A DNA stretch of 64,000 bases from the IMG/VR virus record IMGVR_UViG_3300025897_002116, positions 1 to 64,000 of that record; one strand, given 5' to 3'. A program made the translations under genes and the position numbers. Every line of letters begins with the position of its first letter. Within the stretch, counting starts at the first letter, position 1. The notes beneath the pieces were generated by a model. It worked only from the letters and a program-made list of their open reading frames with translations. It did no database searches and was not told where the DNA came from. The DNA comes from a virus. This document shows, one piece after another, positions 9,369 to 64,000 of the stretch.

Positions 9369-9890
9369 TCATAATACTGCATTACTATTAATCTGTCTAT
9401 CAAAGCAAAATGTCTCATAATCTTTCTCATTAACCTTATACCCCCAATGCAATAAAGATTGCTGTATCCTTGGAGATATATTCCAATTGCCTTCATTATG
9501 TATCTTTGTATATATTCCTGTTCTCCATCTACCGTTGCTACCGCAGAACTCCTGCCATCTCTGTATCTGTCTATTATCGTCTGAGTGCCTTCTTCCGTTA
9601 TGGTACTTTGTATACCACTCAAACCAACCATATGGATCATCCTTATGCATCCATTTCATATCCCTCCAATAAGCATAGTTCATTCCACTTCTTATCTTGA
9701 ACTTATTCATCTTAGGTTTGTATGTTTCTCCTAAGTATAAGCTTGTGTCTACGTTATCGTACGTTTCAAATAGAGTACTATACTCACAATCACCTTCTAG
9801 TTTTTCTATACCAAAATACGATCCTCCGAATATTCCTTCTCTAAGCATCTCACTTGGTGTCAATAAAGGGTTGAATTGTAATGTACTCAT
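9369..9890 (-). CDS. Conserved hypothetical protein (YxxYHxGRR...DDxRQIxRW type)
   Basis: A 173-residue protein. The segment WFEWYTKYHNGRRHSDDNRQ followed by IQRWQEFCGSNGRW is a pattern I recall from a widespread uncharacterised protein family; no catalytic function is known to me. N-terminus MSTLQFNPLLTPSEMLREGI and FGGSYF also look conserved. Hairpin element 2 sits between it and the gene upstream. A shorter overlapping ORF in another frame is a shadow. Confidence 0.75.
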   Translation of the reverse strand: MSTLQFNPLLTPSEMLREGIFGGSYFGIEKLEGDCEYSTLFETYDNVDTSLYLGETYKPKMNKFKIRSGMNYAYWRDMKWMHKDDPYGWFEWYTKYHNGRRHSDDNRQIQRWQEFCGSNGRWRTGIYTKIHNEGNWNISPRIQQSLLHWGYKVNEKDYETFCFDRQINSNAVL

Positions 9891-9905
9891 ATGTAGTTTA
9901 TGTTA

Positions 9906-9959
9906 ATTTCGCGCGTGTCAACTTCGTTGACGGGAGAACAAACGCCCCCGCCCCCTCAT
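9906..9959 (-). repeat. Covarying hairpin element, copy 2
   Basis: Minus strand: GAGGGGGCGGGGGCG, TCTCCC, the perfect 6-bp hairpin GTCAAC-GAA-GTTGAC, then ACGCGCGAA and, 16 nt later, the ATG at 9890. CGGGGG can pair with CTCCCG. Intercistronic position between two small genes. Confidence 0.65.
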
Positions 9960-9980
9960 CCTTATCCTTCTACTTAAAAA

Positions 9981-10199
9981 TTAGCGCTGTACGTTGCTAA
10001 AATAAGTCTTCAATGTATCCAATCTATCATCTGCATCTGTTAGCATCATTAATGCATCTTCGGCATTTTTATAGAAATCATCTGTTGAATGATCTCCTAT
10101 GCCGGCCGGATGATTAGATAAAAGATTTAATGTTAGTAGGGCCTTTGCTTTATCTGCCTTTGCAGATGATTTTAACATAATGTATAGTTCTTCTTTCAT
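9981..10199 (-). CDS. Hypothetical helical protein
   Basis: A 72-residue protein (MKEELYIMLKSSAKADKAKA...) predicted to be all helical; no family recognised. It lies 11 nt after the stop of the 52-residue gene, as part of the same operon. Confidence 0.65.
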   Translation of the reverse strand: MKEELYIMLKSSAKADKAKALLTLNLLSNHPAGIGDHSTDDFYKNAEDALMMLTDADDRLDTLKTYFSNVQR

Positions 10200-10210
10200 A
10201 GTTCTGAGGT

Positions 10211-10369
10211 TTAGCTTTTAGAAATATATTTGTAGTATCTGTATATCTCATCTTTGGTACCCATAATTTCAATCACCTCTGGAATTCCTTTCTCCTCTAA
10301 TTCTCTGAGTAGATCTTTATCCGTAGCGTTCATAAAGTCAACTGTTACCTGCATGAATATTTGTTTCAT
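10211..10369 (-). CDS. Hypothetical 52-residue protein
   Basis: A short gene found by reading the gap: MKQIFMQVTVDFMNATDKDL...EIYRYYKYISKS. Its ATG overlaps the stop of the gene upstream as ATGA, and its stop is 11 nt before the next gene, so spacing on both sides is that of a coupled operon. A strand followed by a helical body is likely; no family recognised. Confidence 0.6.
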   Translation of the reverse strand: MKQIFMQVTVDFMNATDKDLLRELEEKGIPEVIEIMGTKDEIYRYYKYISKS

Positions 10370-52083: not shown

Positions 52084-54402
52084 TTATTTATTGTGCACTA
52101 ATATTCCGTTAGCGTAAAAATTTCTATTATCTTCAACGGAAAAAATATAAGTTTGAGTTGGTACAACTGGTAGTTCCGTTATACTCAAAATAGTAGTTTC
52201 AATATCACTATCTAATGTGTATACCGTATCACCAACTTTTATCTGAGAAACTTCTAACGGTAAGTCATATCTTTCGTTTGTTAACTTAGGAGCATACGAT
52301 GCAAGTTCTAAATTATTTACATAGAATGGGTGGTCATGTGTAGATATAACTTCTGTTTGATTTGAAAAAGTATATTTAACCAAATCATCATGTACTGGTG
52401 ATTCAGTATCTAATACATTCTTATCTTGATGTATTCCAGTTTTTTCATTATACGTTAAGACTGTATCACCAACTACTACGTCTTCTATGTTTTTTTCATC
52501 TCCATTGGATAACATAATTGAAGTTCCTGCAATAAAACAATACCTATTATGTACCAATACCTTATTTGCAAAAAAGTTATGATTTACTTCTACTGTCTTT
52601 ACATTGTAAACAGCAGTTGGTTCTGTTAGTATTTCGGTTGATAATATTGTTAATTCTGAACCATCTTGTTTAAATACTTTGAATCCTTCTTCTGCTTTTG
52701 TTGTAGTAAGATTGTATACACCTGTAGTGTAATCTGGGTCCATAGATACCCATCCTTTTTCTTTTGAATATAATGGATGATCTAACGTTGATTCTATAAT
52801 ACTGTTATCTTCAAATGTGTATTTTACAGTTGTATTTACCAATTTGGATCCGATTCCTTTAACTAAGTGCGGCTCTACTACATTAGTAGCAAAATTAAAA
52901 GACAAAACAGAATCTCCTATTTTAATATCTTCTACTAATTTATACTCGCCATTTGCTAAGGTAATTTCAGTTCCTGCTACAAAACAAGGAGCGTTGTGTG
53001 ATACGATGGCTTGAAAAGAAGTAGACCCACTTATGATATATGTATCAGTATCTTCAACATCTAACTCAACAATTTTCAAACCAGTATCGGATGTTACATA
53101 AAAGTTAACCTCGTCTATATCAATAATATTACCGTTTAAATCAAAGAAATAATCATCATCCGGGTTTAGATATTGGGTAGGTTTATATGCTGTTTGATTT
53201 GAAGAAGAATTATAGACTAACCACTGTTTACCGGTGCCGGTGAATTTAGAATCTGAATCGATTACAACTTCCATAAGTGCATTATAAGTTGAATCTCTTT
53301 CTACTTTAAATACAACTTGTGATGATGTTATGAATGATCCAGATGGTAATTCGTTACCTTCAAAATTCCAAGCTAGTAATGTGGAATCGGATTCAACTTG
53401 TGGTGAACCAGAAATAAAATACGATGATACAAAGTCTCCGACTTCCGTATCTCCTATTTCGGTGAAAGTACCGTCTACCATTTGTATTTTATGAGTAGAC
53501 AATATACCAGATGATCCTGCTTTTATAAAGTTTGTAGCAAACTCATAATAATGAATATCTGATAGCTTATTAATGTACCTTGTTGTGTCCACTTCAGATG
53601 ATATGTCAGCAGGTAATTCAAATATAGAACTTATCTTATAACTATGTAGTGTTACTACACTTAAATCACTCCCATACACTATTTGAAAAGATCTTACAGA
53701 TGTTATGTGGCCATTATCATCGGTATTAGACGTATTATAGTGATATTGGAGGATTAATTTATCATCTCCTTTAATTTCCTCTACAAATGAATTCCATCTA
53801 TCTTCGTTTGACTCATTTTCTACTGTAGAACCTATTTTATAGAAACTAATAGGGTTATATACTTCGGTTATATCCTTTATAGCAACATCTGGAATATTAG
53901 ATGGGTTAATAGTTGATTCTAGTGTATTTGTAATTGAATCAGATCCAGAGTAATAATGTGAAACTACAAAACTACCGCTATCAGTTGAATCACTTGAATC
54001 AAATAAACTAAGTAGCTCTAATGTGCTTTTACAGTATACACTATCAAATAAAGCAGATTCATCATATGCTAACCTTAATATAAATTTATCATCTGAATCT
54101 TCTATACTTTCTGGGTATATTGTGTTTAAATCCTCTGGATGTAGAACTATATTATCAGCAAGTGATGGAATACTTGTGGTTATAGCAGTAGATATCGCAG
54201 AAACTATCTCATTGTGAAAAACTGGTTTGTAAGTAATATGTAACTCAGCTATGTCATTTGTAGTAAGGATTTCAGCAAATTCAGTAAAATTAAAATTTGA
54301 CAATTCATTACCGACTATACTAGTATCTGTGTTTATTTCTAATAACCTAAGATTTCCATTACTGTCTTTTGCAAAATCTGCAGAAAAAAATGTGCCTTTC
54401 AT
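52084..54402 (-). CDS. Large virion-type protein with three tandem Hint domains
   Basis: A 772-residue protein. The N-terminus (FFSADFAKDSNGNLRLLEIN, then TDT) resembles the ATP-grasp-like start of some marine T4-like phage proteins. A degenerate Hint-like region (about 290-470) lacks the first Cys but ends VSHNAP. Two intact Hint domains follow (about 472-621 and 624-772): CFVAGTEITL/STLDHPLY/LVHNR and CFIAGTSIML/STHDHPFYV/LVHNK. Residues after HN are Arg, or Lys and then the end, so autocatalytic cleavage is more likely than splicing. The function of the released parts is unknown. Confidence 0.8.
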   Translation of the reverse strand: MKGTFFSADFAKDSNGNLRLLEINTDTSIVGNELSNFNFTEFAEILTTNDIAELHITYKPVFHNEIVSAISTAITTSIPSLADNIVLHPEDLNTIYPESIEDSDDKFILRLAYDESALFDSVYCKSTLELLSLFDSSDSTDSGSFVVSHYYSGSDSITNTLESTINPSNIPDVAIKDITEVYNPISFYKIGSTVENESNEDRWNSFVEEIKGDDKLILQYHYNTSNTDDNGHITSVRSFQIVYGSDLSVVTLHSYKISSIFELPADISSEVDTTRYINKLSDIHYYEFATNFIKAGSSGILSTHKIQMVDGTFTEIGDTEVGDFVSSYFISGSPQVESDSTLLAWNFEGNELPSGSFITSSQVVFKVERDSTYNALMEVVIDSDSKFTGTGKQWLVYNSSSNQTAYKPTQYLNPDDDYFFDLNGNIIDIDEVNFYVTSDTGLKIVELDVEDTDTYIISGSTSFQAIVSHNAPCFVAGTEITLANGEYKLVEDIKIGDSVLSFNFATNVVEPHLVKGIGSKLVNTTVKYTFEDNSIIESTLDHPLYSKEKGWVSMDPDYTTGVYNLTTTKAEEGFKVFKQDGSELTILSTEILTEPTAVYNVKTVEVNHNFFANKVLVHNRYCFIAGTSIMLSNGDEKNIEDVVVGDTVLTYNEKTGIHQDKNVLDTESPVHDDLVKYTFSNQTEVISTHDHPFYVNNLELASYAPKLTNERYDLPLEVSQIKVGDTVYTLDSDIETTILSITELPVVPTQTYIFSVEDNRNFYANGILVHNK

Positions 54403-57319: not shown

Positions 57320-59683
57320 TTAATGACCATCTCTCCAGTTATTAGATATCTCTGGTGGTGCCTTTAGTGTAACACCGGGTAATACGGTAGTGGTCTCCAT
57401 TATATGCTGGACTATAGGGGCAAACATTTCAGCATCATTCTCCGATACGTTTATTAAGAGCTGATCATGTACCTGTGCCTGGACTGTAGCATCTATGCCG
57501 AGCTCTCTTGCTTTACGATTAATCTTCACTGCAGCTCGATTTACTACCGCAGCGGCTAAAGATTGAAGTTGAAAGTTAAGACAGTTATTTAATCCATTTC
57601 TATAATCTCTATACGCTTGCATTACTTGCTCTTTACCGTATTTGATTTCTAACTCTTTTCTAAATCTCCAGTCCATTATACGGTCTTGAAACTTAATATA
57701 GGTCTTCTGTACTTTAGGTAAGTGCCTAACTCGGCCAACGTAGTTCTTTATAAAGCCATGAGCTTTCACTTGAAGTCTAGAGTTTTCTCTCCATTCTTTA
57801 AGTTGAGGGAAACCATTTAAATACCCTTGAACTAAACTTTCAGCAGTCTTTTGATCTACCCCTAAAGTCATTTTAAGAGCATAGGCCTCCATTCCGTATG
57901 CAATACCTAAAGAGTAAGCCTTTGCCTTATTACGTGCTGGTGCATCTAAGTTTTTAAGATAGTTGGTAGCCTTTTTATCAGGCGAGACTCCGTTAGGAAA
58001 TCTTTTTAGATCCTGGTCTAGCTTTTCAGTTTTAATAGCAACGGTAGAGTAGAAATCCCATCCTTTATTAAAGATTTCCTGTAATGCAGTATCACCGGTA
58101 ACTGAAGCAAAACAATGAGGTTCAAGAGATTCATAATCAGCATCTATTACTTTTCTACCTTCACCGGCTATCATAAAAGCTCTAACAATATTATTATACT
58201 TAACTATTATAGGAACATCTTCTCCTTCTTCTTTGGTTTTAGGTAACTGTTGAGCATCTGAACCATATCGACCGGAGACAGTACCGTTCTGCTTAAAGTA
58301 AAAATAATATTTACCATCTTCGGCTCTATCTAAGAATCTATCTACGTAGGTAGATTTAATTTTAAGTAGTTTATTATAGATTCGTAAATTCTCGGCCCAT
58401 TCATAGTCTTTTGCTAATTCTTCAATCATATCCATGTCGAATTGATCTCTTCCGGATTTAGTATTACCGCCGGACTTAAGGGGAGTAATACCCATATATT
58501 TAAATACGATTTCTCCTAGATGCTTTTTAGATTGAATATTAATAAGGTCGCCGTCATTAGTTTCCTTCCACATACTCATAGAAATTCTATACATTTCTAC
58601 TTCCTCTAAAAAAGATTCATCTCCAGTAAGTAGAAACTGCTTTACTTTTTCCTCTTTTTCATTAGTAGACTCTAGGTCTTGTATTACCTTTTGAGTTAAT
58701 GTATATTTACCGGTCTTTTCAGATTTAGGTAGAGATAGAGAATAACGTTTAGCAAGATTCTGAGCCCAATTACCTTTATTTGATACCGGGAACTTATCGT
58801 TAGCGGTCTTAATTACCCAGGTTTTAGCTTCTGATGTAGCCAGTAAGGATTTCATTACAACCTCTTTATTATGAGCCAAATCAGTAGTTATTTCATTAAG
58901 AGTATTCTTTATAAGGTCCATATTAAGTTCAACTCCATATGCTTCCATAGGAACAGTAACTTCCCTATATACAGGCATTACCTCTTCTTCAAAAAAGAAC
59001 TTCTCCAGGTTTTCTTGCTTAAGTTTAGCAAGGTAAAGATTACAGATACGGAGAGTAAGGTCAGTATCAGCCGAGGCATATTTAGATAAGATTTCAAGGT
59101 CTGCTTTATATATTTCATAACTTTCTTTAGTAACGGATCCTCCGTTATTTTTTATACTTTCTTTTAATTCAAGTTGTTCCTGATTAGCGGCTTCTTCAAC
59201 GTTTAACCCTAGAGCTTCTTGATTCATAATTGCAATGGACTTTAGTCCGAATGGATTACCAAATCCAAAGGCTCCTTCTTCATAAACTGTATGAACTAGT
59301 AGCCCAGTATCTACCCAAATATCTTGTAGTAGATCCACACCAAAATAATTCTTTATAAACTGAACATCAAAGGAGGCATTATGGAAAACTAACTTTTTAC
59401 CTTTAAGAAGTTTAAGTAGATTTATAGAGATCACCTCAGTAGAGGTACCTTCTATTTCCTGTAACACTAATTCTTCTCGATGGTAATCCCATACAAGGGT
59501 AGGTAAGTAGAATCCTATGCCTTCATCTCCGGATACTGACCATCCAATAATTTTATTCTTTCTAGGATTAAGTCCGGTAGTTTCTGTATCCACCGCAAGT
59601 ACGTCTGAGTTACTTATATGTTGGTGGAGTAGCTCAAGAGTAGTTTTATCTTGAACAGTATAGTACTTTTTTTCTAATTTCAT
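57320..59683 (-). CDS. Family A DNA polymerase with 3'-5' exonuclease domain
   Basis: A 787-residue replicative polymerase. Exonuclease domain: LAVDTETTGLNP (Exo I, about 29-40), FHNASFDVQF and YASADTDLTLR (Exo III). Polymerase: VIDADYESLEPHCFASVTGD (motif A), ARNKAKAYSLGIAYGMEAYA (motif B) and VQAQVHDQLLIN (motif C). The O-helix position equal to E. coli Phe762 is Leu here (AYSLG). A T4-like phage would be expected to use family B, so this replisome is mosaic. Confidence 0.95.
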   Translation of the reverse strand: MKLEKKYYTVQDKTTLELLHQHISNSDVLAVDTETTGLNPRKNKIIGWSVSGDEGIGFYLPTLVWDYHREELVLQEIEGTSTEVISINLLKLLKGKKLVFHNASFDVQFIKNYFGVDLLQDIWVDTGLLVHTVYEEGAFGFGNPFGLKSIAIMNQEALGLNVEEAANQEQLELKESIKNNGGSVTKESYEIYKADLEILSKYASADTDLTLRICNLYLAKLKQENLEKFFFEEEVMPVYREVTVPMEAYGVELNMDLIKNTLNEITTDLAHNKEVVMKSLLATSEAKTWVIKTANDKFPVSNKGNWAQNLAKRYSLSLPKSEKTGKYTLTQKVIQDLESTNEKEEKVKQFLLTGDESFLEEVEMYRISMSMWKETNDGDLINIQSKKHLGEIVFKYMGITPLKSGGNTKSGRDQFDMDMIEELAKDYEWAENLRIYNKLLKIKSTYVDRFLDRAEDGKYYFYFKQNGTVSGRYGSDAQQLPKTKEEGEDVPIIVKYNNIVRAFMIAGEGRKVIDADYESLEPHCFASVTGDTALQEIFNKGWDFYSTVAIKTEKLDQDLKRFPNGVSPDKKATNYLKNLDAPARNKAKAYSLGIAYGMEAYALKMTLGVDQKTAESLVQGYLNGFPQLKEWRENSRLQVKAHGFIKNYVGRVRHLPKVQKTYIKFQDRIMDWRFRKELEIKYGKEQVMQAYRDYRNGLNNCLNFQLQSLAAAVVNRAAVKINRKARELGIDATVQAQVHDQLLINVSENDAEMFAPIVQHIMETTTVLPGVTLKAPPEISNNWRDGH

Positions 59684-59784: not shown

Positions 59785-60045
59785 TTACATTTCTCCGTAA
59801 AGATCAAACTTTTCGGGTTCGGGCTCTTCTATCAATATTTCATTTTCCTTTATAGCAAATAACTTACCATTTAAAGGCTCTAGTCTATAATGACCTTTGA
59901 ATTGTGTTTTTCGCATATAAGCAGTTAGTGTTGCTACAAGGCCTGTGATAACTGTTGCTTTGTCTATTGTTAACTCCCAGCTATCACCAGGAGGAACTCT
60001 TTTAGCTATAAGTTCATTTTGCTCTTCTATTATTTTCTCAGTCAT
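59785..60045 (-). CDS. Hypothetical protein
   Basis: An 86-residue acidic protein (MTEKIIEEQNELIAKRVPPG...). No family recognised. Its start overlaps the radical SAM stop as TAATG, so it is the last gene of the nucleotide-modification operon. Confidence 0.7.
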   Translation of the reverse strand: MTEKIIEEQNELIAKRVPPGDSWELTIDKATVITGLVATLTAYMRKTQFKGHYRLEPLNGKLFAIKENEILIEEPEPEKFDLYGEM

Positions 60046-61604
60046 TATTTTCCTTTAATATAATCTAAAATTTCGTCTTGAATATCAGGTTCTATATAAT
60101 CTTGAGATCCTGGGTTAGAGTTTTGTGGGGATAGTACCCATCCTTCTTTTTTAGCTAGTTCTAAAACACCAGAAACTTCACTATTAGAATTAGCTGTATC
60201 ACCATTCATTGACCCCAAAAGCACAGGGGCTAATTTGGTTTCTGGAATAGAATCCCACCACTCTTTTAATGTAGGGAAGGCTTCAAGAAAGTTTTTATTT
60301 CTTCTTATATCGTATTGAGTATAGAAGGATTTCCAATCTCTTTCTCTACTTTCAAAAGAGGAAGTATGTTTATGTCCAGTCTTGATTTCTCTAATATAGG
60401 CAATAAGTCTTACTATACCATCTTTCTCCATCTCTAAGAGATACTGAGTATTCAATTCTAGCCATTTTTCGATGTGATCTGCACGTTCTTTTCTAATATA
60501 TTCCGGTAAGGTTACTATAGACTGGAAGCTTGGAAATCTTAAAATATTAAAAGAGCAGATTGGAAAATGATCTCCATATTTTTGTTTCAATTTTATTACT
60601 TCGTCCATAAATTCTGTTATAGAGAATAGGCACAAAGCATTAATTGTCATCATAACATTTAAAGATTTGATATTAGCTTCATCACATACTCTGTACATAT
60701 TAGATAACCACTTATCCCAAATTAAATTATACCGTATATACTCAGACTGCAATCCTGTAGATTCATTAGATGTATAAAGATGAAATGATTTGATATTATG
60801 ACTTGCTTTAATTAACTCATCTAAGAGTCTATCTTTCTGCCCTAAATTAGAATTAACTGCAAACTCAACTTCACACTCTTTATGTGTTTCCCACCACTTC
60901 ATTAGTTTCCAAAAATCTGGGGACATGGTAGGTTCACCGCCTGTCACTCTTAATTCACGTAAACTAAATTGTAGCTCGGCTTCCCACCATTTATAAAAAG
61001 CTTCTACATAAGGATTATTTTCATTTTTCCTGCCGTATGGCATGGCATGACCACCATCGTGTTGGAATGCTACCGCACCATCGGATACCAGGTTTTGATA
61101 CGGGCCGAATTGTTTGATATCTTTTTGCCAAGTAGTTGAAAATGAAGCATTGCAGTAAGAACAAGCAAAATTACAATTAGGGTCAAATGCAATTTCTAAA
61201 GTCTTTAAGTCAACATCTTCTTGCCATCCAAATTTTGACTTAGCATCTTTAAGTTCCTCATCGGTATAAATTACAGATTTGTAAACTCTATCTGATATTT
61301 TATCTTCCCCTAGGTCTTCAATCTTCCAGCAATATTCACACTCTTTTGGTCTTTCTCCTTCGAGCATCTGCTTTCGGATAAGCTTCTTATAACTAGTGTT
61401 GTGTATTGCTTTATAACTTTGGGCTACTTCCTCTAAAGGTATCTTATGTGCGGGTGGGTGATGGCAGCTTGCAGTAGTACCATTTCCTAGCCATATAGTA
61501 GCGTTATACCATTTGGCTCCGCAGAAAGCAGGGGATACAGAGTTTATTGCTCTATCTCTGTATTTCTGGTAGCTTTCGTTTCCTTTTTTTGCGAATATTC
61601 CCAT
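60045..61604 (-). CDS. Twitch-domain radical SAM protein
   Basis: A 519-residue protein. Radical SAM cluster motif CNFACSYCNASFSTTW (CxxxCxxC, about 146-153), LRELRVTGGEPTMSPDFWKL (GGEP) and FAVNSNLGQKD. N-terminal and distal Cys (SCHHPPAHKI, CEYCWKIED) suit an auxiliary (twitch) cluster. Such proteins are common in marine T4-like phages; their substrates are not known to me. Directly downstream of queF in the operon, so a link to base modification is possible. Confidence 0.85.
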   Translation of the reverse strand: MGIFAKKGNESYQKYRDRAINSVSPAFCGAKWYNATIWLGNGTTASCHHPPAHKIPLEEVAQSYKAIHNTSYKKLIRKQMLEGERPKECEYCWKIEDLGEDKISDRVYKSVIYTDEELKDAKSKFGWQEDVDLKTLEIAFDPNCNFACSYCNASFSTTWQKDIKQFGPYQNLVSDGAVAFQHDGGHAMPYGRKNENNPYVEAFYKWWEAELQFSLRELRVTGGEPTMSPDFWKLMKWWETHKECEVEFAVNSNLGQKDRLLDELIKASHNIKSFHLYTSNESTGLQSEYIRYNLIWDKWLSNMYRVCDEANIKSLNVMMTINALCLFSITEFMDEVIKLKQKYGDHFPICSFNILRFPSFQSIVTLPEYIRKERADHIEKWLELNTQYLLEMEKDGIVRLIAYIREIKTGHKHTSSFESRERDWKSFYTQYDIRRNKNFLEAFPTLKEWWDSIPETKLAPVLLGSMNGDTANSNSEVSGVLELAKKEGWVLSPQNSNPGSQDYIEPDIQDEILDYIKGK

Positions 61605-61634: not shown

Positions 61635-62543
61635 TTACTGTCTTAAAGTTTTGGCAATTCTGAACTCTGGTGAAGTAAAGAATTCTGGTATCAGCATTGA
61701 ATGCGTTGCTCTAATTGGATTAATATCAATTCCTCCTCTACGGGTGTATAAACAAGATACCATTAACTGCTCAGGTTGAAAAGCATCATATAGGTGTCTA
61801 AATATCATTTCACATATTTCTTCATGAAAATGTGATACAGTTCTATGAGAAACTATATATTTAGCGATTGATCCGGATGATGGTATTTTCTTTCCTATAA
61901 TTTTTATGTAAACATCTCCCCAATCCGGTTGATTTGTAACTCTACAGTTTGATCGAAGTAAATTTGAGGATAATTTTATTTCACTTGATTCTTCAGCAAC
62001 TTCTTCTACTGTTAGTTGAGAAGCATCGGATTGAAAAGCGGTAAAGTCTATTTGATCTAAATCTGTTGCATCTTTTAAATCTACGTACCCTTCAAAAGAA
62101 AGCGGGTGACCATCATCATTAGATGTATAAAAAGAAACAGTTGTATCAGTTTCTAATAATTCATCTAGATCCCTTTTGACTCTTGCTTCAATTCCAGAAA
62201 TACAATCTGATGCGGTCTTGCCGATTTTAGTCATATTAAGTGAATTCAAGTAAAGTTTAATTGACTTAGACTCTACGTGATTATATGAATCAGCAGGGCA
62301 AACTATTTTAAGCATTCCGGCTACGGGTTGACCTTTTTCGGTTATTGCTGAGACTTCATATGCATTCCAGGTATCTACCCCAACGAACTCTTCTCCGGTT
62401 AAGCTATATGCTTCTCGATTAAGGTATCGAGGAATTTTCACTAATAGGGATGCATCGTATTGATCTGAGTAACCATCACCGCCTACTTTACCTAAATGTC
62501 TGTTTGCTAGACTTACTACTTCTTCTTGATTCTTATCTGCCAT
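61635..62543 (-). CDS. queF: NADPH-dependent 7-cyano-7-deazaguanine reductase
   Basis: A 302-residue bimodular QueF, close to E. coli QueF in length and pattern: YDASLLVKIPRYLNREAYSL, the QueF motif ESKSIKLYLNSLNMTKIG (about 92-109), the catalytic Cys and Asp in LLRSNCRVTNQPDWG (about 195-210), SHRTVSHFHEEICE and YTRRGGIDINPIRA. It reduces preQ0 to preQ1, and in phages supplies 7-deazaguanines for DNA. Its neighbour dpdA supports that use. Confidence 0.95.
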   Translation of the reverse strand: MADKNQEEVVSLANRHLGKVGGDGYSDQYDASLLVKIPRYLNREAYSLTGEEFVGVDTWNAYEVSAITEKGQPVAGMLKIVCPADSYNHVESKSIKLYLNSLNMTKIGKTASDCISGIEARVKRDLDELLETDTTVSFYTSNDDGHPLSFEGYVDLKDATDLDQIDFTAFQSDASQLTVEEVAEESSEIKLSSNLLRSNCRVTNQPDWGDVYIKIIGKKIPSSGSIAKYIVSHRTVSHFHEEICEMIFRHLYDAFQPEQLMVSCLYTRRGGIDINPIRATHSMLIPEFFTSPEFRIAKTLRQ

Positions 62544-62547
62544 AATT

Positions 62548-63066
62548 TTATTTAATAAATTCCAATATTTGCTCTACTCTTTGCATAGGAGAACCAGTAA
62601 CTTTTATCATATTACTGTTTATACTAGCTAATTGATTTCTAAATTCTTTATCTATATCTCTTCTCCACTCTTCATTAATACTCCTAACTCCATCATCAAC
62701 TGATTTGAACTCTATAGGAAAGTAAACATAATGTGAATATTCATTTTTAATTCTTGACCAAGTATCATCAACAAACGCTACGGTTGCAGCGCTTGCTTTA
62801 TTCATATACTTAGTATATACTACTAAATCCATATAACATCGATCTAACACACAGTTATACGGTTTAAGTAATGCTTCTAAATGAAAACTAGAGATTGCTA
62901 ATTGAGTTTCCGAAGTTCCTTGTTCATTAATAGGAAACCCAAACTCTTTGACCGTACGAGTAGATTCATTTATAAACTCGTATTTAGGTAATTTACTTTT
63001 CAGTAATTCATATACTGTAGTCTTACCGGTACTGCTTGCTCCTATTAATGCTATTTTCTTTACCAT
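62548..63066 (-). CDS. P-loop kinase-like ATPase (AAA_28/NadR-like)
   Basis: Start at the ATG at 63066 (MVKKIALIGASSTGKTTVYE), 172 residues; the frame to 63093 would overlap the formyltransferase further. Walker A GASSTGKTT (about 9-17) and a Walker B-like VLDRCYMDLVVY (about 72-84), as in NadR-like kinases. Between queF and the formyltransferase it may act on a nucleoside or cofactor in the modification pathway; unproven. Confidence 0.75.
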   Translation of the reverse strand: MVKKIALIGASSTGKTTVYELLKSKLPKYEFINESTRTVKEFGFPINEQGTSETQLAISSFHLEALLKPYNCVLDRCYMDLVVYTKYMNKASAATVAFVDDTWSRIKNEYSHYVYFPIEFKSVDDGVRSINEEWRRDIDKEFRNQLASINSNMIKVTGSPMQRVEQILEFIK

Positions 63067-63617
63067 GTAACCTTTTTTAAAAACATAACCCACATACTTA
63101 AACTCGTATCTCTAAATTTAAGGAATAATTCTTCAATTTCCAACTCTTCAGCATTAAATTTTCCAGTTGCTATAACTCCTCCTTCGTCTACTCCTTTAGT
63201 TACCCTATGTAGTACACAACCTGCTTGTTTGTAATTACCTCGGTAAGCTCTTATTTGAGGATCTTTACCTTTAAGTTCTGGATACTCGGTTATAAGTCCT
63301 GGATGACCATTAATTATCTTGTATTTTTCACAGAGCTCAGGAGGAATCACTCTTAACCAACCATGTAGAGTTATAATTGGATTATCAAACTTACTTAAAA
63401 ATCTTTCATAATCCTCAACAGTAGGTTTATTAGGGGTATAGCGTACAATACCTTTATTATTAGCCCAGGAAAGTATCTGCTTATTTATTTTCCTCAAATT
63501 TTCAGGTCTCTCATTAGTAATTATTCTATCAGGCAGTCTTCCTAATTTTTCTACTAAATCTACTATTTCGGTACCTGTTTGACTAAAAAATACAATCCAG
63601 GGTTTATTCTTATTCAT
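63060..63617 (-). CDS. PurN-like formyltransferase
   Basis: A 185-residue protein: LHGWLRVIPPELCEKYKIIN followed by GHPGLITEYPELKGKDPQ (Asn-x-His of the catalytic triad, about 96-100), AGCVLHRVTKGVDEGGVIAT (catalytic Asp about 142). These are the hydrolase/formyltransferase signatures of 10-formyl-tetrahydrofolate-dependent enzymes such as PurN. It overlaps dpdA by 8 nt and the kinase by 7 nt. Formylation of a 7-deazaguanine base is the suggested role. Confidence 0.82.
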   Translation of the reverse strand: MNKNKPWIVFFSQTGTEIVDLVEKLGRLPDRIITNERPENLRKINKQILSWANNKGIVRYTPNKPTVEDYERFLSKFDNPIITLHGWLRVIPPELCEKYKIINGHPGLITEYPELKGKDPQIRAYRGNYKQAGCVLHRVTKGVDEGGVIATGKFNAEELEIEELFLKFRDTSLSMWVMFLKKVTW

Positions 63618-64000
63618 TCCAAAACTTTCTAAACTTTTTTATATTTACTTTTATTAACTCATTACTTATCTCCGCTAAAGGAGTATTGATTAATGTGAAT
63701 AGCTTTTGAGATTCCTTACTCCATAATCCCGTTTCTCCGTACTTAATATTCTTAATAGCATGTACTACAGGGTTAGATGTATCCATTGAATAGATCCATG
63801 GATAGTTTCTATAGTACATTCCTTCTTGGGGTAATGAACATCCTAATAGGTGATGAGGTTTATTCTCGTTCAATATCCCATCTTTTAATAAGTCCCCTAA
63901 TAGTTTTACTCTGCCGAGCATCCAACTAACATACTTATTTGGATGAGGAACAGACTTACTATAGTAGGAATAATCGAAAGAGATTGCAATCATATCTACG
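63610..64000 (-). CDS. dpdA: DpdA-like DNA transglycosylase, C-terminal part (runs off the right edge)
   Basis: The frame stays open to position 64000; ATG at 63993 is internal or too late, since in-frame codons precede it. Visible residues include MIAISFDYSYYSKSVPHPNK, then HHLLGCSLPQEGMYYRNYPW and IYSMDTSNPVVHAIKNIKYG. The LLGC.LPQE...YSMDTSNPV pattern is that of phage DpdA, a TGT-type enzyme that exchanges guanine in DNA for preQ0/preQ1-type bases. Adjacent queF strengthens the call. Confidence 0.75.
   Translation of the reverse strand, partial: VDMIAISFDYSYYSKSVPHPNKYVSWMLGRVKLLGDLLKDGILNENKPHHLLGCSLPQEGMYYRNYPWIYSMDTSNPVVHAIKNIKYGETGLWSKESQKLFTLINTPLAEISNELIKVNIKKFRKFWNE

Follow-up and report, generated by a model that had tools for sequence, protein, structure and literature searches.

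In this study, we identified a four-gene operon that, in our judgement, very probably serves DNA hypermodification by a short DpdA (probably of the DpdA3 type) and would replace dG with N-formyl-preQ1, hiding the DNA from restriction enzymes. It lies at the right-hand end of the window, which covers bases 1 to 64,000 of a 72,952-base virus record (the rest of the record was read as L002). In the route that we propose, GTP would be converted to preQ0 by FolE together with QueD, QueE and QueC, the latter three presumably encoded past the end of the record, and preQ0 would be reduced to preQ1 by QueF. DpdA would then swap guanine for preQ1, and a PurN-like enzyme using 10-formyl-tetrahydrofolate as donor would formylate the free aminomethyl amine, giving a DNA in which N-formyl-preQ1 stands for dG and which restriction enzymes would fail to recognize. 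The initial annotation had read this region as a DNA formyl-7-deazaguanine operon with dpdA, a formyltransferase, a kinase and queF, and the fold, the motifs and the recurrent gene order all support it. Formyl-deazaguanine chemistry is already known; what is new here is the kinase as a companion of short DpdAs and the swapping of other acyl enzymes into the place of the formyltransferase. The features are as follows.

57320-59683, minus strand: DNA polymerase family A (PF00476, 1.8e-55), on the downstream side of the operon and in the same position in phage immuto
61635-62543, minus strand: queF, bimodular 7-cyano-7-deazaguanine reductase, 302 aa
62548-63066, minus strand: P-loop kinase, 172 aa, with an ATG start and an alternative in-frame GTG upstream at 63093
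63060-63617, minus strand: PurN-like formyltransferase (FT), 185 aa, candidate dPreQ1/preQ1 formyltransferase, DpdN-like
63610-64401 of the record, minus strand: full dpdA, 263 aa, of which only the 3′ part (63610-64000) is inside the window
64669-65190 of the record, beyond the window: MazG/PRA-PH protein, upstream part of the operon
65748-66449 of the record, beyond the window: folE, upstream part of the operon

The four genes run head to tail with the junctions first described, dpdA and FT overlapping by 8 nt, FT and the kinase gene by 7 nt, and the kinase gene and queF being separated by 4 nt; the peptides LLGCSLPQE and YSMDTSNPV are likewise present in the dpdA product. Beyond the window, the upstream part of the operon encodes a 64-aa protein, the MazG/PRA-PH protein, a DUF4494 protein, a cupin, FolE, a phosphoribosyltransferase and a second AAA_28 kinase. 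The polymerase gene is given as context, and we do not claim it as a member of the operon. Directly after queF, at 60045-61604 on the minus strand, lies a gene for a twitch-domain radical SAM protein (NF033640, 297 bits), of which no homologue was seen in a first neighbourhood tally of 90 dpdA loci. It was considered as QueE and ruled out, being a twitch radical SAM protein, and the QueE of immuto matches nothing in the record. Further away (52084-54402, minus strand), a 772-aa open reading frame ends in two C-terminal Hint/intein-type domains (PF07591, PF14890, PF05203), preceded by a long region with no Pfam match. Beyond the window, on the strand of the operon, are genes for an S1/P1 nuclease (record 67673-68437), a TonB-dependent receptor of 911 aa (68483-71218) and a DNA/RNA non-specific endonuclease (71538-72125; together L002 14673-19125). 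The possibility that these genes mark a host chimera was ruled out, as related phage contigs have homologues at the corresponding position, those of the receptor being 65-73% identical in phage loci L021, L038, L041, L074 and L102. That a phage carries an outer-membrane receptor together with nucleases points to scavenging of nucleic acids or to receptor masking. The host of the phage is probably a flavobacterium.

Sequence-profile searches of Pfam, NCBIfam and PDB with DpdA gave no match, and a comparison of folds was therefore needed. Foldseek with the AlphaFold model (pLDDT 89) returned TGTs as the best matches (2pot, E 2.8e-7) and also the solved DpdA 7ui4 (E 8.7e-6), so that the completed upstream gene, which the initial annotation had called dpdA-like from its fragment, shows the TGT/DpdA fold in the predicted model. 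Residues D53, D84, H184 and D207 are invariant in an alignment of 16 short and 11 long DpdAs. D53, D84 and D207 are thereby catalytic-type aspartates common to known DpdAs and, by the motifs of TGT, would be equivalent to TGT D102, D156 and D280. The protein is 68% identical to the annotated DpdA of Flavobacterium phage vB_FspM_immuto_2-6A (NC_055915; immuto) and about 40% identical to that of Campylobacter phage CP220, with which it falls in one clade apart from the long DpdAs, in a tree that splits short from long with a support of 100/99 and has several long branches. It is a short DpdA, probably of the DpdA3 type, the subfamily of the Campylobacter-phage enzymes, and its predicted activity is the insertion of a 7-deazaguanine into DNA. 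Isoelectric points were compared as a possible guide to DNA binding: short DpdAs are more acidic than long ones (median 5.2 vs 6.5), but their neighbours are likewise more acidic. A Bacillus phage BSTP12 protein annotated as NadR (L184 5896-6684) is also a short DpdA homologue (profile E 1.4e-22), its gene sitting between those of a P-loop protein and DNA polymerase I; the NadR annotation looks wrong.

QueF carries both Pfam modules (PF14819, 8e-28; PF14489, 1e-17) and is of the bimodular nitrile reductase type, matching structure 3bp1 at 1.5e-45; the Cys, Asp and ESKSxKLY motifs are found in all 77 QueF homologues scored. Its identity, first proposed from motifs, is thus borne out, and its score on the strict TIGR03138 equivalog (236 bits, below the cut-off of 293) resembles that of a divergent phage member. 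The initial annotation had suggested looking for queC, queD, queE and folE nearby. The folE gene is in the same operon, and homology searches of the 72,952-base record for QueC, QueD and QueE gave no match. All three are present in near-complete relatives: QueC is found in 11 of 11 large relatives (ten plus immuto), and QueD and QueE adjoin the operon in most of them. The record is a fragment, and the absence of queC, queD and queE most likely reflects its end.

Scans of viral and genome contigs yielded 103 distinct dpdA loci, most of the relatives being environmental contigs. Among the 71 loci with at least 4 kb of downstream DNA, 70 have the kinase, 67 QueF and 66 FT, and some 65 distinct loci repeat the arrangement dpdA-FT-kinase-queF, which is therefore not due to chance. 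MazG is present in 68 of the 87 loci having upstream DNA, and a purine-type phosphoribosyltransferase gene in 59 of 90. In the distant T4-like phages L169 and L170, the four genes form a minimal island, the structural genes being on the other strand; in the T4-like L090, L174 and L175, the island includes one or two further genes. In the L174 cassette, an IMPDH/GMP-reductase family gene (9379-10350; PF00478, 1.8e-56) lies between FT and the kinase gene. A small conserved protein is encoded just before the kinase in these T4-like cassettes (L090 10518-10895, L174 10347-10694, L175 7362-7712) and was assigned, in L090 and L174, to phrog_1485, of unknown function.

In a few rare relatives FT is replaced, and the replacing enzymes are all of acyl-transfer kinds:

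L039 6123-7079 and L041 10331-11287: kinase with a C-terminal GNAT domain (Pfam 5e-4 in L039, 5.9e-7 in L041), FT missing; candidate for acetylation of preQ1
L017 5528-7054, L023 3327-4853 and L025 6918-8444: 508-aa FkbH-domain and GNAT protein (FkbH domain, TIGR01686, 151 bits vs a cut-off of 146.7) in the FT slot, together with a glyoxalase-family protein; candidate for glyceryl-type or other acylation of preQ1
L145 9009-10055 and L179 8980-9978: amidoligase-like protein in the FT slot, a tentative assignment (PF12224, E 0.072 and 0.0021, under the curated cut-off), with a separate GNAT protein before queF

The queF gene is kept in every FT-replaced locus that extends far enough. Given that enzymes of the GNAT, FkbH and amidoligase kinds can all acylate an amine or a related nucleophile, these replacements support the view that the slot serves to cap the preQ1 amine. 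DpdAs that are closely related (about 68-79% identical) occur with different enzymes in this slot, so that acylation probably follows base exchange, although the formyl group could be added to free preQ1 before exchange. The swapped modules predict N-acyl-preQ1 DNA bases in identifiable phages, and could provide new enzymes for DNA labelling. We know of no report of such bases.

The kinase matches PF13521 (4.4e-16) and has a P-loop and a DR motif. Profile searches returned NadR, thymidylate kinase and a chain named deoxyguanosine kinase (2jaq, E 0.0048), and Foldseek with its model (pLDDT 88.5) returned deoxyadenosine kinase (2jat, 6e-7), the NadR kinase domain, dCK and TMPK; by its model, it has a deoxynucleoside/nucleotide kinase fold. 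It adjoins dpdA in 70 of the 71 loci with at least 4 kb downstream, also where FT is missing, and in the sole kinase-less locus, L182, the sequence upstream of dpdA is just 785 bases long. A partnership with FT was ruled out, because the kinase persists without it in CP220, which has dpdA and the kinase gene with neither FT nor QueF alongside, and in L180 (dpdA-kinase-queF-queC). Very divergent short DpdAs also adjoin P-loop genes: Campylobacter CC_R7 has an AAA_28 kinase in this position, Cellulophaga phiST and Chryseobacterium MA9V-3 have AAA_18-type proteins, and Bacillus BSTP12 has a P-loop protein with only weak dNK similarity. Overall, 15 of 17 short DpdAs have a P-loop kinase-like gene within 3 kb, these genes being of at least three kinds; the two exceptions, L182 and L183, are truncated on one side by the end of the contig. 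No such gene lies at that distance from any of 12 long DpdAs, a sample ranging from phage 9g to Arthrobacter phages, next to which sliding clamps, ParB-like proteins or que genes are encoded. Fisher's test, leaving out L182 and L183, gave 6e-8, a value that overstates the evidence because the loci are related to each other. Two Streptomyces phage records have a related kinase with no que or dpdA gene annotated nearby. We regard the kinase as a working part tied to DpdA and would guess, before anything else, that its substrate is a nucleoside or nucleotide of (deoxy)guanine or of 7-deazaguanine. Neither a kinase as the constant partner of short DpdAs nor an exchangeable acyl slot was found in the literature searched, whose coverage lacked key DpdA papers, and neither is known to be described in the 2023 work of Cui et al.

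To our knowledge, there is no settled account of how certain phages come to carry a 7-deazaguanine in place of every guanine. Crippen et al. in 2019 reportedly detected no phosphates of dADG, and insertion after replication is reportedly the view of Cui et al. in 2023. Two readings of the level at which DpdA acts and of the task of the kinase have to be weighed, both of which fit the product proposed above. In the likelier one, to which we give a little under an even chance, DpdA would act on DNA after replication, and the kinase and the phosphoribosyltransferase, along with MazG, would recycle the released guanine and reshape the dGTP pool. DpdA is described in a review as a post-replicative enzyme of the DNA polymer (PMC12707154), the fold of the kinase suits nucleotides, and the frequent phosphoribosyltransferase gene and the IMPDH/GMP-reductase gene inside the L174 cassette are consistent with recycling. 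However, the minimal cassettes of L169 and L170 have the kinase with neither phosphoribosyltransferase nor MazG nearby, and phages with long DpdAs also release guanine, yet those sampled lack the kinase.

The kinase pattern and the presence of MazG by dpdA call to mind the pool enzymes found in Z-genome phages (PMC8342488, PMC12884076) and make a nucleotide-level route a serious alternative, if a rather doubtful one. MazG would convert dGTP to dGMP, on which, or on dG, the short DpdA would swap the base; the kinase would phosphorylate the resulting compound towards a dNTP, for incorporation by the phage polymerase. Such a route would agree with the regular occurrence of a kinase-like gene by short DpdAs and its absence by the 12 long ones sampled, with its retention where FT is missing and with the frequency of MazG. 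Short-DpdA phages can reach complete replacement, as 100% of G is dADG in the Campylobacter phages CP220 and CPt10 (PMC8306585), and phages whose genomes contain Z, with PurZ, MazZ, DatZ and DpoZ, employ MazZ and other pool enzymes (PMC8342488). Against it stand the description of DpdA as a DNA-polymer enzyme (PMC12707154) and a comparison of MazG and a Campylobacter HD protein with solved structures, which gave no MazZ or DatZ match; moreover, the case is built on gene neighbourhood rather than biochemistry, with a sample of long DpdAs as control. The results reportedly obtained by Crippen et al. and the reported argument of Cui et al. also point the other way. Taken together with the slot, this route leads to a broader proposal, which we put forward tentatively and consider possible rather than likely: short DpdAs would be nucleotide-level transglycosylases acting on dG or dGMP before replication, the kinase would make the DNA precursor, genomes would become guanine-free, and relatives would vary the preQ1 amine by interchangeable acyl modules (formyl, GNAT-type, FkbH-type and amidoligase-like), creating unreported DNA bases. 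If true, replacement of G would be complete, as is that of A in Z-genome phages. The tie of the kinase to the short-DpdA clade and its absence by the sampled long DpdAs make the question of nucleotides versus DNA directly testable.

Within our preferred reading, formylation of preQ1 in DNA is assigned to FT. The protein matches PF00551 (9e-12) and PurN structures (about 1e-8), and it has the intact N-x-H and Asp motifs first noted in its sequence: N103, H105 and D144 are invariant in ten divergent homologues, and the catalytic motif pair is found in 84 of 85 loci. One could suppose that FT is a purine-synthesis gene formylating GAR that merely rides in the operon, the DNA carrying plain preQ1; the nearest solved relatives of FT are indeed PurN, and its immuto counterpart is annotated as phosphoribosylglycinamide formyltransferase. 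We consider this very unlikely, because FT scores 43.8 bits on the PurN equivalog TIGR00639, far below the cut-off of 150.1, and so is not a PurN equivalog, in agreement with the expectation that it would not group with true PurN; because it has a conserved SQTGxE motif where PurN has its N-terminal loop; because even the minimal cassettes keep it together with dpdA and queF; and because GNAT, FkbH or amidoligase-like enzymes occupy its slot in relatives. FT is accordingly presented as a candidate dPreQ1/preQ1 formyltransferase, DpdN-like, its predicted role in DNA resting on genomic context. FT matches in Listeria are weak, unannotated fragments. That the operon modifies tRNA by the queuosine route, not DNA, is scarcely credible: QueF and TGT-fold enzymes are members of tRNA queuosine synthesis, but this DpdA is short and matches TGT by fold and not by sequence profile, and the DNA of CP220 and CPt10, which have a homologous enzyme, is fully dADG-substituted (PMC8306585).

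Compared with known systems, the operon shares with Z-genome phages, under the nucleotide-level reading only, pool enzymes beside a base-making enzyme and the full replacement of one base; it has no PurZ, its base would come from the queuosine pathway, and it is not a member of that group. Phages with an Enterobacteria phage 9g-type DpdA (PMC6884629) share queuosine-pathway genes and a TGT-fold DNA enzyme, but their DpdA is longer and in a separate clade, with clamp or ParB-like neighbours and no kinase nearby. The Campylobacter firehammerviruses CP220 and CPt10 share a DpdA and, after it, a kinase that are homologous to those described here (about 40% and about 33%, respectively) and differ in having no FT or QueF beside dpdA and in their base, dADG at 100% of G (PMC8306585). 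The closest relative is the operon of immuto, for which DpdA, QueD, QueE, FolE and QueF are already annotated publicly. It has the same order of MazG, dpdA, FT, kinase, queF and polA, and also folE, queD and queE, with identities of 68% for dpdA, 66% for the kinase, 64% for queF and 52% for FT; unlike immuto, our record has the twitch radical SAM gene after queF, a cupin and a second AAA_28 kinase, and queC, queD and queE are outside it. In 2023, Cui et al. reportedly described phage DNA containing formyl-preQ1 and predicted a dPreQ1 formyltransferase, DpdN; with that DpdA3/DpdN fdPreQ1 system the operon shares a short DpdA, a predicted dPreQ1 formyltransferase and QueF.
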